Positions 3-55,391 of a DNA stretch of 64,000 nt are shown here, in pieces. The DNA comes from Ktedonobacteria bacterium (GTDB lineage: Bacteria; Chloroflexota; Ktedonobacteria; Ktedonobacterales; JACDGC01): contig DAIDHM010000033.1 in assembly GCA_027459705.1 (NCBI GenBank), forward strand, positions 1 to 64,000. Reading direction: 5' to 3'. Position 1 is the first letter of the stretch, and the number at the start of each line of letters is the position of its first letter. A program made the position numbers and the translations under genes. The notes under the pieces were generated by a model. That model was not told the DNA's origin, made no database searches, and worked only from the letters and a program-made list of their open reading frames with translations.

Positions 3-1070
3 GAACCACAGCTTGTGCCGCCAATCTGGGCAAATCTCCACCATTATGACGCCGTGCGCGATGGCTATGCCGACGCGCTGACCGGGTTGCTGCGGGCGTT
101 GGGAGTACCGGGCGGTCCGAAGACTGTCTCGCCGTTCCTGGCGGCGTTGCTCCCGGGAAATGGCCAGGTTGTCAGCCCTGCTTCACCAGTCCCGCCACCC
201 CGCTCCACTGCTTCGCCGCACTTCCCGGGCCTGCCGCCAGAGAAACTGCCGCCCCGGCTCGTTCAACTGGGCTTCACTGGCCAGGCGCGCGCCGTCGAGG
301 GGCGACCGGTGGATGTCATTCTCCCGCCGCTCTGTCATGTCGATGCGGGACCGTTCTGGATGGGGAGCCGGAACGATCCCCAGGCGAGAGATGATGAACC
401 CTGGCACCAGGTGACGACGGGCGCGTATGACATTGGCACGTACCCGGTGACGGTGGCGGAGTATGCCTGCGCGGTGCGGGCGGCGATAGTGAAAGAACCA
501 GATGGGTGGTCCCGTCAGCAATGGAAGGGTTTGGACCACCCGGTGGTCAATATCAGGTGGCAGGATGCGGTTGCTTATGTCGCATGGCTGGCACGGATGA
601 CAGGCGAACCCTGGCGATTACCGACCGAAGCGGAGTGGGAAAAAGCGGCGCGGTGGGACCAGGCCAATCAGGTGGCGCGTATCTATCCCTGGGGAGATGC
701 ATGGGATCCTCAGCGGGCGAATGTGGATAATTCAGGCGGGAAGTCCTTGAGTAGTCTGATCCTAGGAGCACGAACCACGGCGGTTGGGTATTATGCGCAG
801 CAAAGCGATGCCAGCCCGTATGGTTGCCACGATATGGCGGGAAATGTCTGGGAGTGGACCAGCAGTATCTATAATGCGTCCGCCTATCAACCAGATAATA
901 AAAGAGAAAATAACAGTGATAGAACATCATGGCGAGTGCTGCGGGGCGGTTCGTGGGTCAACCTCTCCAGGTTCGCGCGCGCGGCGGACCGCGGCAGGTA
1001 CAGCGTAGTCATCTACCTCGGCAACTGTGGTTTTCGCTTGGTTCGTGGGGTGGGGGCTGGCTCTCACTAA
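3..1070 (+). CDS. FGE-sulfatase (SUMF1/C-type-lectin fold) protein, 5' truncated by the window edge; C-terminus looks like a DGR variable region
   Basis: Motifs GPFWMGS, YDIGTYPVTVAEY, WRLPTEAEWEKAAR, YPWGDAW, GCHDMAGNVWEWTSS, RVLRGGSW...GFRLVR. Reading frame is open to the left edge (EPQLVPPIWANL...), so the gene starts outside the window. Confidence 0.9.
   Translation, partial: EPQLVPPIWANLHHYDAVRDGYADALTGLLRALGVPGGPKTVSPFLAALLPGNGQVVSPASPVPPPRSTASPHFPGLPPEKLPPRLVQLGFTGQARAVEGRPVDVILPPLCHVDAGPFWMGSRNDPQARDDEPWHQVTTGAYDIGTYPVTVAEYACAVRAAIVKEPDGWSRQQWKGLDHPVVNIRWQDAVAYVAWLARMTGEPWRLPTEAEWEKAARWDQANQVARIYPWGDAWDPQRANVDNSGGKSLSSLILGARTTAVGYYAQQSDASPYGCHDMAGNVWEWTSSIYNASAYQPDNKRENNSDRTSWRVLRGGSWVNLSRFARAADRGRYSVVIYLGNCGFRLVRGVGAGSH
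948..1046 (+). other. Putative DGR variable region (VR) in the FGE domain
   Basis: GGSW-VNLSRFARAADRGRYSVVIYLGNC-GFRLVR: of 19 variable-looking codons, 15 are NNC (GTC AAC CTC TCC TTC GAC GGC TAC AGC GTC ATC TAC CTC GGC AAC), as expected from AAC template codons mutated at A. Confidence 0.7.
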
Positions 1071-1471
1071 ATTGTTCTTGTTTCCTTGCTTTCTATTATG
1101 GTGGAGTAGTGATCCGTTTAGGGCGCGCGAGGACGGTGGGGGTCCCCAGCGCGCGCAGCGCGAAAAATTTTTTGCGGAATGGGAGTGTGGTGGAGCGGGA
1201 CGGTGCGTCGTGGCGAAGGCGGCGCGCGCGGGGAGATGCTCATGGAAACCGCTCGCTGACGAGATCCTTTCACCACTCGCTCGCGGAGAATGATGCGGTA
1301 GCGACGGGCATAGCCTGAATGCCCGGGGGGGAGGCACAATGTGATACGATATGAGCAAACAGCCCCCTGTCAGTCTGATTTGTTCATTGCGGCTACTGGA
1401 GCATGGATCCGCCACCTGGCACCTGTGCTCAATCTCCCGCATACGTTCCATGATGGAGGCGTCTCAAATTC

Positions 1472-51592: not shown

Positions 51593-53401
51593 CTAGGTAT
51601 TGAGCACGTACAGGATGGGCGCGCTTGACAGGAACGCCAGCCCGTTGGCTACTGGTCGCCCCCCACTCGGAAAATCTCCCGATAAGGCGATCGAGACTCC
51701 GCTGACCGGGGCAAGGAAGTAGGAAACCAATGTCCCATCCTGCGTCCGCAGACCGATAAGCACTTCGACCCCTTGCTGATTGCCATCGGTCGAGATGCAG
51801 CCGAGCGTGAAATAGACAGTATCACCAATGACGGTGGCTGGCTCGAAGTTCGCAACAACCACGGCATTGTGCAGTTGAAATGGGATATTCAGCTGTAGCG
51901 GATCGACCTGCCAGAGCAGGTGGCCATCGGTCGCGTCAAAGGCGAACACGCGTCCCCCTTTGAACGCTAACCCATCCGTCACGCCGCTCTGCGCGAAGAT
52001 CCTGCTCTGCGCGTAGGTAGGTTGACTCATGCAGGTAAATTCTTGGAAATCCGTATTGGGTTGTGCTGGCGAAAGGCTCTTCCAGCGTAAGGTCCCCCTG
52101 GCGGCATCATACGCATAATAATGATTATCGGGACTGCCTACCACAACCAGACCATTGAAGACGAGCGGCGCGGCGATGACGTATTGTCCTGGTAGCGTGC
52201 CACTGCCAGGGAGCTGCAATGACCAGCGCACTTTGCCCGTCACAGCATCGAGCGCGTAGAGCTTGCCGGGGTTGGTCACCACGTAGAGCATGCCACTGGC
52301 ATAGACTGGCATTGGATAATTCGGATAGAATTCAGAACCTCCATGAGGATCCAGGCTCACTGGCTGCCAGCGTGCCGTTCCATTCAAGCGATACGCATAG
52401 ACTGATCCATTGCCCATAAAATAGATCGTATTGTCCGCAATGAGCAAATCGGAAGCGTTACCATTTACTGTACTGATGGGCGCACTCTGCCAGAGCAGAT
52501 TGCCCGACGTTTTATCCAGAGCAAGCAAGACAAAGGCATTGCTCGCCAGAGCATTCGTCGTGATATTGCCAATGAGATACACCACATTCTGATACACCTG
52601 GATGATCATCGCGTTAGATAAGGTCGTGATCGACGAAGTCTTAGAAGGAAAGAGCCAGAGAACTTTGCCATCTTGCGGAGCCAGGGCTTTCACGGCCAAT
52701 CCAGAATTCGTTGCCGCATACAGGGCGTCCATATCTTGAGCCAGACCTACACGCTGATCACCACCAAAAGCAGTCTCATCCGCTGAGAAGTTAAAATCAT
52801 AATGCCAGCGTTGTGCTAGCGCTTTTGGGTCACTGGCGATTGACTGAGGCGTGGTTGCTGGTTTGAGGGCAGCAACGGTGTGGGGCGGTGCGGCAAAATA
52901 AAATCGTGCGGCGAGGACAGTGGTGGCGGCCGCCACAAGACTAGCCGCTCCAATGGCAATCGCCGTGCGCCGACTGACTCGTGGTTGCGGAGTATAGCCT
53001 AATGCCTCGCGCAACGCCCTCAACCAGGCGGGACGTTCCATGCTCGTTGCATCGATGACCATCTCCGCGCGCGCCGTGGCATCAAACACCAGGCCGGGAG
53101 TGAGGGCGAGATGGATGATGCGGCGTGGGTGGTTGGGGAAGGCGTGCTGCAAGCCGCGCACCGCCTGCAATTCGCGGTACATCCAATATGATCGTTCCGC
53201 GGCGGCGGTCGCGACGCGCAACAACAGATCATGCTGTTCTAACGCTTGCTGAATCTTATCCGCGAACCGCTGACCAGGATCCAGTTCTTGCAGATCAAAC
53301 CAGTAGGTGATCTGCCAGGCATCGAGCGCCGCGAGCAGGGGCTGGCAGATCGCGTTGTCTTCGTGGGCATGGCTGATGAATACCTGGCCGTTGCCGAACA
53401 T
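51593..53401 (-). CDS. TIR-like domain - TM - PQQ-type beta-propeller protein
   Basis: GQVFISHAHEDNAICQPLLAALDAWQITYWFDLQELDPGQRFADKIQQALEQHDLLLRVATAAAERSYWMYREL; VSRRTAIAIGAASLVAAATTVLAARFYF; blades such as LYALDAVTGKVRWSLQLPG, YYAYDAARGTLRWKSL. Confidence 0.9.
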   Translation of the reverse strand: MFGNGQVFISHAHEDNAICQPLLAALDAWQITYWFDLQELDPGQRFADKIQQALEQHDLLLRVATAAAERSYWMYRELQAVRGLQHAFPNHPRRIIHLALTPGLVFDATARAEMVIDATSMERPAWLRALREALGYTPQPRVSRRTAIAIGAASLVAAATTVLAARFYFAAPPHTVAALKPATTPQSIASDPKALAQRWHYDFNFSADETAFGGDQRVGLAQDMDALYAATNSGLAVKALAPQDGKVLWLFPSKTSSITTLSNAMIIQVYQNVVYLIGNITTNALASNAFVLLALDKTSGNLLWQSAPISTVNGNASDLLIADNTIYFMGNGSVYAYRLNGTARWQPVSLDPHGGSEFYPNYPMPVYASGMLYVVTNPGKLYALDAVTGKVRWSLQLPGSGTLPGQYVIAAPLVFNGLVVVGSPDNHYYAYDAARGTLRWKSLSPAQPNTDFQEFTCMSQPTYAQSRIFAQSGVTDGLAFKGGRVFAFDATDGHLLWQVDPLQLNIPFQLHNAVVVANFEPATVIGDTVYFTLGCISTDGNQQGVEVLIGLRTQDGTLVSYFLAPVSGVSIALSGDFPSGGRPVANGLAFLSSAPILYVLNT

Positions 53402-53434: not shown

Positions 53435-55132
53435 TTACGGATTGATGCCGATGACATGATTTTGCGCGTCGCCGATGGCAAAAACACCACCAAGCACATA
53501 GGGACCGCTCACCGTGCCACGCTGGGCAGTCGGTGTGGATGGCAGTTGATATGGCCAGCGCCGTACCCCGGTGACGAGGTCAATGGCACTGAGGGTGTCG
53601 CCAGCGGCAACTGCGACGAGATTGCCATAGACGACTGGCTGATAGTTGATGACGGCATACTGGGTTCCGGCATCAAATTTTTCTTCGGCCCCGGCGAACG
53701 TTCGCCAGTAATAGGTGCCATGTTGAGCGTCGAGCGCCCAGAGATACCCGGAGGCATCACCGATATAGATGATGCCATTGTCAATGGTGGCAGGCGCGAT
53801 GAAGGGATTGCCACAGGCAAGCTGCCACCGCATTGCGCCAGAGTGCGCGTCGAGCGCGATGAAGGTGCCGTCGAGCGCGCCAACATACACGGTATGCGCG
53901 TCGACCACCGCCGTGCTGACGACGACGCTGGGAAATGGGTAACGCCAAATCTGGGTGCCGTCAGCGGCATTGAGGCAGTAGAATGCATAGGATCCACCGA
54001 CATAGACGCGTCCATTGGCATACGTCACACTGGGGTGAGGCGTCCCGGTTCCGACAACGACGGCCCAAAGGTTTTTGCCGGTCGTCAGGTCGAAGGCACT
54101 GGCTGACCAGATACCATTCACTGGAAAGATACAGAAGAGGGTGTTCCCCGCAACCGAGACCCGACCAGCAGGGCCAATAAAGTTTGGATTGGGGAATATC
54201 ACGGGGATATGAGTGCGCATCGTCTGGTCGCGCGCGCTGAGCACATTCAGATAGACTGAGTTGCCGCCATCTTCGGTATCATAAAACGTGAGCACGTTGC
54301 CATCAGTATATGGCTGCGGAACCAGATCGGTTGTACCAGTGCCATTCACGATGATATTCTGGTACTTTGTGGAAGTCCAAAGGGTATGGTGTTGCGCGTC
54401 GAGGGCCATGATGGTGTTCTGGGCAAAGGCATAGAGAATTCCATCACCACTCGCGGCGAGTCCAATCGATGGGAAATAGGCATTGGGGTCCGTACCTGGG
54501 GTCTGGCTTACCGCGATGGTCCAGGCTGGTTGCCCACCAACCGTATCACCAGGTCCAAAGGTGGGGACGGCTTTGGCGGCAGCCCTGGCATCGCTCAAGG
54601 CTTTGGCATTGCGGAGGAAGAAAGTTCCCGCCGCGCCACCGGAAACTAACGTTACCAGGCTCGCGGCGCCCAGCGCCAGCGCCGCCCGCCGACTGATGCG
54701 CCGCGCGGGGGTCGCGACGCCGATGGCACGCGCGAGTTCATCCAACCAGAGCGCGCGGGTCTTCTGTGATGTATCGATGAAAAGCGTTGCCTTGTCGAAA
54801 GTCTCACGTATATACCGGGTATCCAGGATGATGTTGACGAGGGCCCGCTGCCGACGTCTCCGCTGGTGTTGATCCTCCGCCTGGAGTTCGGTGAAATAGC
54901 GCAACTCTGCAGACATCAGCGCGGAATCGGCGGTGGCGAAGCTACATAGTCGCAGACAGACTTCACATTGGCGTAAAGCCGCCTGCTGTTGATCGCTGAG
55001 GTGGTCATCCGCGCCCAGGTGACGAGGCGATTGGGCGTACGTGACCTCCCAGGCGTCGAGCGCCGCTGTCACGATATCGCCGTCGCGCGCATCTTCTGGT
55101 GCGAAGCTGACATAGACGAGCTTTCCAGCCAT
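53435..55132 (-). CDS. TIR-like domain - TM - PQQ-type beta-propeller protein (paralog of 51593..53401)
   Basis: KLVYVSFAPEDARDGDIVTAALDAWEVTYAQSP..LRQCEVCLRLCSFATADSALMSAEL; ISRRAALALGAASLVTLVSGGAAGTFFL; blades FIALDAHSGAMRWQLACG, LWALDAQHGTYYWRTF. Confidence 0.88.
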   Translation of the reverse strand: MAGKLVYVSFAPEDARDGDIVTAALDAWEVTYAQSPRHLGADDHLSDQQQAALRQCEVCLRLCSFATADSALMSAELRYFTELQAEDQHQRRRRQRALVNIILDTRYIRETFDKATLFIDTSQKTRALWLDELARAIGVATPARRISRRAALALGAASLVTLVSGGAAGTFFLRNAKALSDARAAAKAVPTFGPGDTVGGQPAWTIAVSQTPGTDPNAYFPSIGLAASGDGILYAFAQNTIMALDAQHHTLWTSTKYQNIIVNGTGTTDLVPQPYTDGNVLTFYDTEDGGNSVYLNVLSARDQTMRTHIPVIFPNPNFIGPAGRVSVAGNTLFCIFPVNGIWSASAFDLTTGKNLWAVVVGTGTPHPSVTYANGRVYVGGSYAFYCLNAADGTQIWRYPFPSVVVSTAVVDAHTVYVGALDGTFIALDAHSGAMRWQLACGNPFIAPATIDNGIIYIGDASGYLWALDAQHGTYYWRTFAGAEEKFDAGTQYAVINYQPVVYGNLVAVAAGDTLSAIDLVTGVRRWPYQLPSTPTAQRGTVSGPYVLGGVFAIGDAQNHVIGINP

Positions 55133-55391
55133 ATCCCCTCCCATGTTACTGACAGGCCGCTTTTACCTTAGCAGAGAAGCAAGGCACTGTCAATGAGGTT
55201 GCATGGATGGAAAGTTATAAACATATGGCATTTCGCCAGGCCACAATGTTGTGCCAGTCTTGATCCATGCGAGGGGATGCGAGGATCCAACAAGATGAGG
55301 TGACCTGCCCGAAATCCCTGGTTGATACCCAGCATGGCCTCAAGGCACGGTGGCTTTACGGGCAATACTGTAACGTCAGTATGGCGTTCAC

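Follow-up and report, generated by a model that had tools for sequence, protein, structure and literature searches.

Evidence that an FGE-domain gene of a Ktedonobacteria bacterium is a remote target of a diversity-generating retroelement serving seven putative sensor genes

Introduction

Could the 3' end of a gene at the very edge of a contig have been written by a reverse transcriptase encoded elsewhere in the same genome? In diversity-generating retroelements (DGRs), of BPP-1 and others, reverse transcription of the RNA of a template repeat (TR) introduces errors at adenines; the resulting cDNA takes the place of a variable repeat (VR), and the TR itself is left as it was. This adenine-specific mutagenesis turns AAC codons of the TR into NNC codons in the 3' part of target genes of the C-type-lectin/FGE fold. 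The window analysed here is the whole stretch of 64,000 nucleotides at positions 1-64000 of contig C12 in a Ktedonobacteria genome assembly (G000; 4.6 Mb, 245 contigs), and it opens with an FGE-domain gene that has lost its 5' part to the contig edge and whose last codons carry this signature. A sequence-only reading took the gene for a DGR target, and probably for a remote one. Here we ask whether the genome holds a template and an enzyme that could have produced the signature, and which other genes they serve.

Results

The gene at the start of the window

The features discussed below are collected in Table 1. The residues and NNC-type codons reported for the C-terminus of the FGE domain are present as described: the protein ends in RGGSW-VNLSRFARAADRGRYSVVIYLGNC-GFRLVRGVGAGSH, and among the 24 codons that separate GGSW from GFRLVR, 17 end in C. 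The earlier tally of 15 NNC codons among 19 variable positions came near the count that the TR gives, which is 14 mutable NNC codons (12 AAC, GAC and TAC in the template) together with two AGG codons and one GTA codon that also carry a mutable A. The constant C-ending codons of this stretch are TCC and two CGC. The FGE domain gives a profile match (E 1.7e-26) to TvpA (2y3c), a known DGR variable protein, and the VR sits in the 3' end of this C-type-lectin-fold gene.

A stretch of 55 residues upstream of the FGE domain closely resembles the end of the TIR domain and the linker of the complete protein C232b, in which a profile search found a TIR_2 domain. From this identity the lost N-terminus of the window gene is most likely a TIR domain. 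A TIR query against the genome contigs, seeking the missing N-terminus, found no near-identical end beyond C232b.

Table 1. Positions of the predicted DGR features in the window and on other contigs of the genome.
Feature	Position	Strand	Remarks
Predicted DGR target gene (encodes a variable protein), last 355 codons	3..1070	+	5' part lost at contig start
Likely TIR domain end and linker	12..176	+	76% identity over 55 aa to the complete C232b TIR-FGE target
FGE-sulfatase / C-type-lectin-fold domain (PF03781)	336..1046	+	E 1e-49
Variable repeat (VR), 121 bp	936..1056	+	Equals the C232 TR at 92/92 non-A sites; differs at 17/29 A sites
GC-rich GTGGGGTGGGGG, 3' end of TR and all VRs	1045..1056	+	Sequence observed; likely role from the BPP-1 parallel
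Conserved 3' flank, 7/7 family-1 targets	1057..1149	+	Not after TR; last codons, stop (1068-1070), weaker inverted repeats
Hairpin CGCGC-GCA-GCGCG, then A5T6	1150..1173	+	Candidate target-recognition hairpin (or terminator)
Template repeat (TR), 121 bp	C232:35967-36087	-	Rich in asparagine codons
Second-family VR gene	C179:4790		Constant VR bases unlike family 1
Second-family VR gene	C210 (L028 ORF end)		Constant VR bases unlike family 1
Second-family VR gene	C64:4236	-	Constant VR bases unlike family 1
Second-family VR gene	C221:161		Constant VR bases unlike family 1

A template repeat that differs at adenines only

The same genome contains a 121-bp TR on contig C232. All 17 mismatches between this TR and the window VR fall on TR adenines, which occupy 29 of the 121 sites (hypergeometric P = 2.3e-13), and the identity breaks off within 0-1 base at either border (936 and 1056). 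The variable region had been placed at 948-1046; the location was right, and the true VR is slightly wider. None of the 12 AAC, 2 AGG, 1 GAC and 1 TAC codons of the TR can mutate to a stop codon. As computed from the TR, with 15 residues per AAC codon, about 1.9e16 stop-free proteins are possible per target.

One template, seven targets

We searched the whole genome with the TR sequence in which every adenine was left open, and with the reversed pattern as a control. The open-adenine pattern matched the TR itself and seven VRs, located on C12 (the window), C38, C134, C215, C224 and, twice, C232, while the reversed pattern gave no match genome-wide. The seven VRs lie on six contigs and share a single TR; six further VRs are thereby added to the one that had been read from the window alone, and the window protein becomes a member of a family of putative TIR/NACHT-FGE sensors.

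When the seven VRs were pooled, 99 of 203 A sites were changed, against 2 of 644 non-A sites (Fisher P = 1e-68). The changes at A sites were to G (49), T (39) and C (11), all but one of them (98/99) at codon position 1 or 2, and each of the 29 A sites varied in at least one VR. Five of the seven VRs, including that of the window, equal the TR at 92/92 non-A sites. Between targets, the non-A sites of the VR are 99.4% identical, whereas the 60 nt directly upstream average 62% identity, as would be expected if the VRs were repeatedly rewritten from a common template.

The family-1 targets have a common C-terminal FGE domain and differing N-termini. C134 and C232b are TIR-FGE proteins, C215 has a TIR domain, a long middle region and the FGE domain, and C38 and C224 combine NACHT/AAA and HEAT repeats with FGE, with weak NACHT scores that lie barely above the cut-off in C38 and barely below it in C224. 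The first C232 target is truncated by the other end of its contig. C38, C224, C134, C215 and C232b thus each join a lectin domain containing a VR to either a STAND NTPase or a TIR effector.

A single reverse transcriptase cassette on another contig

A PF00078 search of the genome found one reverse transcriptase (RT), on C232. The minus strand of this contig carries, in order, the FGE target cut by the contig end, RT, Avd, TR and the complete TIR-FGE gene C232b. The RT and TR are about 0.4 kb apart, and the Avd start codon overlaps the RT stop. The closest solved structure to the RT is 8ub7 (E 3.8e-42), which we take to be the BPP-1 DGR RT, far ahead of group II RTs (6e-23). The Avd gene matched PF22296 bAvd above the cut-off (E 3e-18) and scored 77.5 bits with the NCBIfam model DivGenRetAVD, slightly below its 80-bit cut-off. 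An Rfam search around the TR and Avd gave no match.

The genome search that the sequence-only reading had proposed, for a DGR-type RT and a matching template, thus led to an RT, an adjacent Avd and a TR different only at adenines. Because the genome's one PF00078 RT lies on C232, the window target is remote, as had been supposed: RT, Avd and TR are all on another contig. A local DGR inside the window was ruled out on the same search result.

A conserved hairpin downstream of the targets

About 130 bp 3' of the VR are common to all seven family-1 targets, and the TR lacks them. This flank ends in a hairpin of the pattern CGCGC-GNA-GCGCG with A and T runs behind it. The hairpin lies some 95-100 bp downstream of the VRs and is absent after the TR. 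Across the 4.6-Mb genome the pattern has 10 matches, all directly 3' of FGE genes and in both VR families, since it also picked up genes of the second family described below; the reversed pattern had none genome-wide. The C38 copy is a variant outside the search pattern. RNAalifold found little covariation in the family-1 flank (2 pairs), and the window flank folded as DNA was no better than its shuffles (z -0.7). Separately, a G-U-containing stem (GTGGGGG-CTGG-CTCTCAC, window 1049-1068) straddles the VR end and is invariant in all seven family-1 targets; it could be an RNA-level element or chance.

In BPP-1, homing requires a hairpin 3' of the VR, whose stem structure is essential and whose stem sequence is not (PMC3240598). 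The features here may correspond to those of an initiation-of-mutagenic-homing (IMH) region: a GC-rich end common to TR and VR, for which GTGGGGTGGGGG is likely the IMH-like element by analogy, and a hairpin after VRs only, with a distance and loop unlike those of BPP-1. Phage DGR hairpins lie 4-34 bp from the VR and have a GRNA tetraloop (PMC3240598), whereas the distance here is about 95 bp and the loop a GNA triloop. Given this greater distance, it is by analogy that we infer a role for the hairpin in guiding retrohoming.

Could the hairpin be a transcription terminator and nothing else, with no part in retrohoming? We give this reading real weight, though we do not favour it, as the element scores terminator-like, with a stem, five A and then a T run. 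A housekeeping terminator would, however, be expected at unrelated genes, and all ten matches follow FGE genes. BPP-1 and other DGRs, moreover, depend on a comparable hairpin downstream of the VR (PMC3240598), and among 35 related loci stems of at least 6 bp within 150 bp 3' were commoner after VRs than after TRs (26/35 versus 14/35, P = 0.001). The GC-rich GNA-loop hairpin therefore probably marks target sites.

A second VR family and other FGE genes

A second VR family comprises four FGE genes, on C179 (TIR and TPR), C210 (TIR), C64 (TPR) and C221 (partial). Their VRs differ from one another mainly at NNC/NNT codons. A pattern search of the assembly for the TR of this family found only the VRs; the cassette of the family may have been lost or may not have been assembled. 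In this family a longer stem precedes the hairpin, with arms that are replaced together among C179, C221, C64 and C210 (pairing by eye); the 3' flank of C179 folds with a z of -5.6.

A protein kinase-FGE gene (C164:1271-1972; L018) has a tail resembling a VR and, 3' of it, a hairpin like those above. Its codons are no longer NNC-like, and it is perhaps an older, decayed target. Within the window, an ORF at 51593-53401 (minus strand) has a TIR-like N-terminus (weak match), an apparent membrane segment and a C-terminus of propeller-like repeats. It resembles its neighbour at 53435-55144 (minus strand), and no link to a DGR was seen for either.

Relatives of the cassette

Relatives of the RT were found at 74 loci, mostly in Chloroflexota MAGs, with a top identity of 69-70% in Ktedonobacterales, and about 48 of these loci have an A-biased TR/VR pair nearby. 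In the window's GTDB family the RT occurs in 5 of 6 genomes examined, its own genome counted. Target architectures in relatives include TIR-FGE, TIR-TPR-FGE, NACHT-FGE and trypsin-FGE. A complete Ktedonobacterales genome, CP126532 (G006), encodes an RT 69% identical to that on C232. It has one TR-like repeat (L050:7585), and the VRs of its several FGE paralogs show drift at non-A sites. In one paralog (L138) the CGCGCGCAGCGCG hairpin is retained, no more than about 100 bp downstream.

Discussion

We conclude that the window VR is a remote target of a DGR, with a probability of about 0.97 judged from sequence. In the mechanism that we propose, the TR-containing RNA would be copied by the RT with Avd, and template adenines would become random bases in the cDNA. 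The mutated cDNA would then replace VRs that have the constant bases and the 3' end of the TR, followed downstream by the conserved hairpin element. In this way a single cassette would diversify at least seven proteins with TIR or NACHT-HEAT N-termini, each on its C-terminal FGE/lectin face. From the state of the VRs we also infer that retrohoming is active today.

A broader and tentative proposal, which we hold somewhat less probable than its opposite, is that the VR and the GNA-loop hairpin some 95-100 bp further on form a portable 3' tag. Such a tag would let one RT/Avd/TR cassette rewrite any tagged FGE gene while signalling heads (TIR, NACHT-HEAT and possibly kinase) are swapped freely, and the second family would depend on another TR, past or present.

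Might the window VR instead be a frozen paralog, diversified in the past, with the cassette spread by duplication of gene 3' ends rather than by retrohoming? Remote copies can be leftovers, as in Treponema denticola (PMC4891356), and the 3' flank common to the seven targets outside the TR does point to duplication of a 3' module at some time. In the complete Ktedonobacterales relative CP126532, the remote FGE paralogs have 10-22 (in one case 30) mismatches to the TR out of 79 non-A sites, which indicates that decay is the outcome without recent homing. The perfect non-A match of five of the seven VRs, the window's among them, next to poorly conserved upstream coding sequence, stands against this account, since without recent rewriting silent changes would be expected in the VR too. 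We therefore consider a frozen paralog unlikely and prefer a VR that is still rewritten from the C232 template.

What the diversified proteins do is a separate matter. We propose that they are intracellular sensors that would bind variable foreign proteins, for example of phages, and activate an effector of defence or of cell death. A role as immune or antigen sensors is the most likely one, and in our estimate a fairly probable one, because of the TIR and NACHT partners and of what has been proposed in the literature for comparable genes (PMC10907252, PMC7159879). That they are surface adhesins or ligand receptors with a non-immune role seems improbable to us: cellular DGR targets are often surface-exposed and those of T. 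denticola are often lipoproteins (PMC8144416, PMC4891356), but the N-termini here are TIR or NACHT-HEAT and none has, by eye, the look of a secreted lipoprotein.

Finally, an ordinary FGE-fold gene whose NNC pattern reflects GC-biased third positions in a high-GC genome is rejected as a most improbable explanation, for although G+C content is high in this region and up to 13 of 24 codons end in C in FGE paralogs that are not part of family 1, those outside both VR families have 4-11 of 24, and the genome holds a TR that matches the VR except at adenines.

If the proposed mechanism holds, a single mutagenic retroelement diversifies what can be bound by the products of several separate sensor genes, whose signalling heads differ, a logic comparable to one variable-region engine supplying several receptor types. 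TIR- or NACHT-bearing sensor proteins could gain very many binding surfaces through a single RT cassette. Large metagenome surveys are blind to such remote targets (PMC8144416); if the hairpin tag holds, remote targets could be found by sequence search without knowledge of the TR.

Our literature search found no paper linking a DGR with Ktedonobacter, and several known systems are comparable. Like Bordetella phage BPP-1, the system has an RT, Avd, TR, VR, a GC-rich VR end and a hairpin 3' beyond the TR/VR homology (PMC3240598); BPP-1 has a single phage tail-fibre target. In T. denticola, a single RT and a single TR act on as many as seven dispersed targets of the FGE fold (PMC4891356). As in that system (TvpA family), one TR here serves seven FGE targets, and the window FGE domain is similar to TvpA. 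Unlike in T. denticola, where targets are mostly lipoproteins, the FGE domain here is joined with TIR or NACHT-HEAT modules, and the VRs equal the TR almost perfectly at non-A sites.

In Thiohalocapsa PB-PSB1, one of the multicellular bacteria with cellular DGRs, C-terminal C-type-lectin/FGE VRs are found on STAND/NACHT proteins, some with TIR effectors, which were proposed as antigen sensors (Dore et al. 2024; PMC10907252). That organism has nine loci in four TR/VR classes, whereas here a single TR serves seven genes with varied N-termini. In cyanobacteria, dispersed FGE/CLec paralogs with kinase, caspase-like or TIR-like N-termini are diversified remotely (Vallota-Eastman et al. 2020; PMC7517822); the present case comes from another phylum with another N-terminal set, and adds NACHT-HEAT and a hairpin that the targets have in common at their 3' side. 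Cellular DGRs with several targets, among them putative antigen sensors, are thus already known, and the system described here is a new and unusually clean example, of which the less usual traits are the exclusive 3' hairpin and the mixed set of putative sensors.
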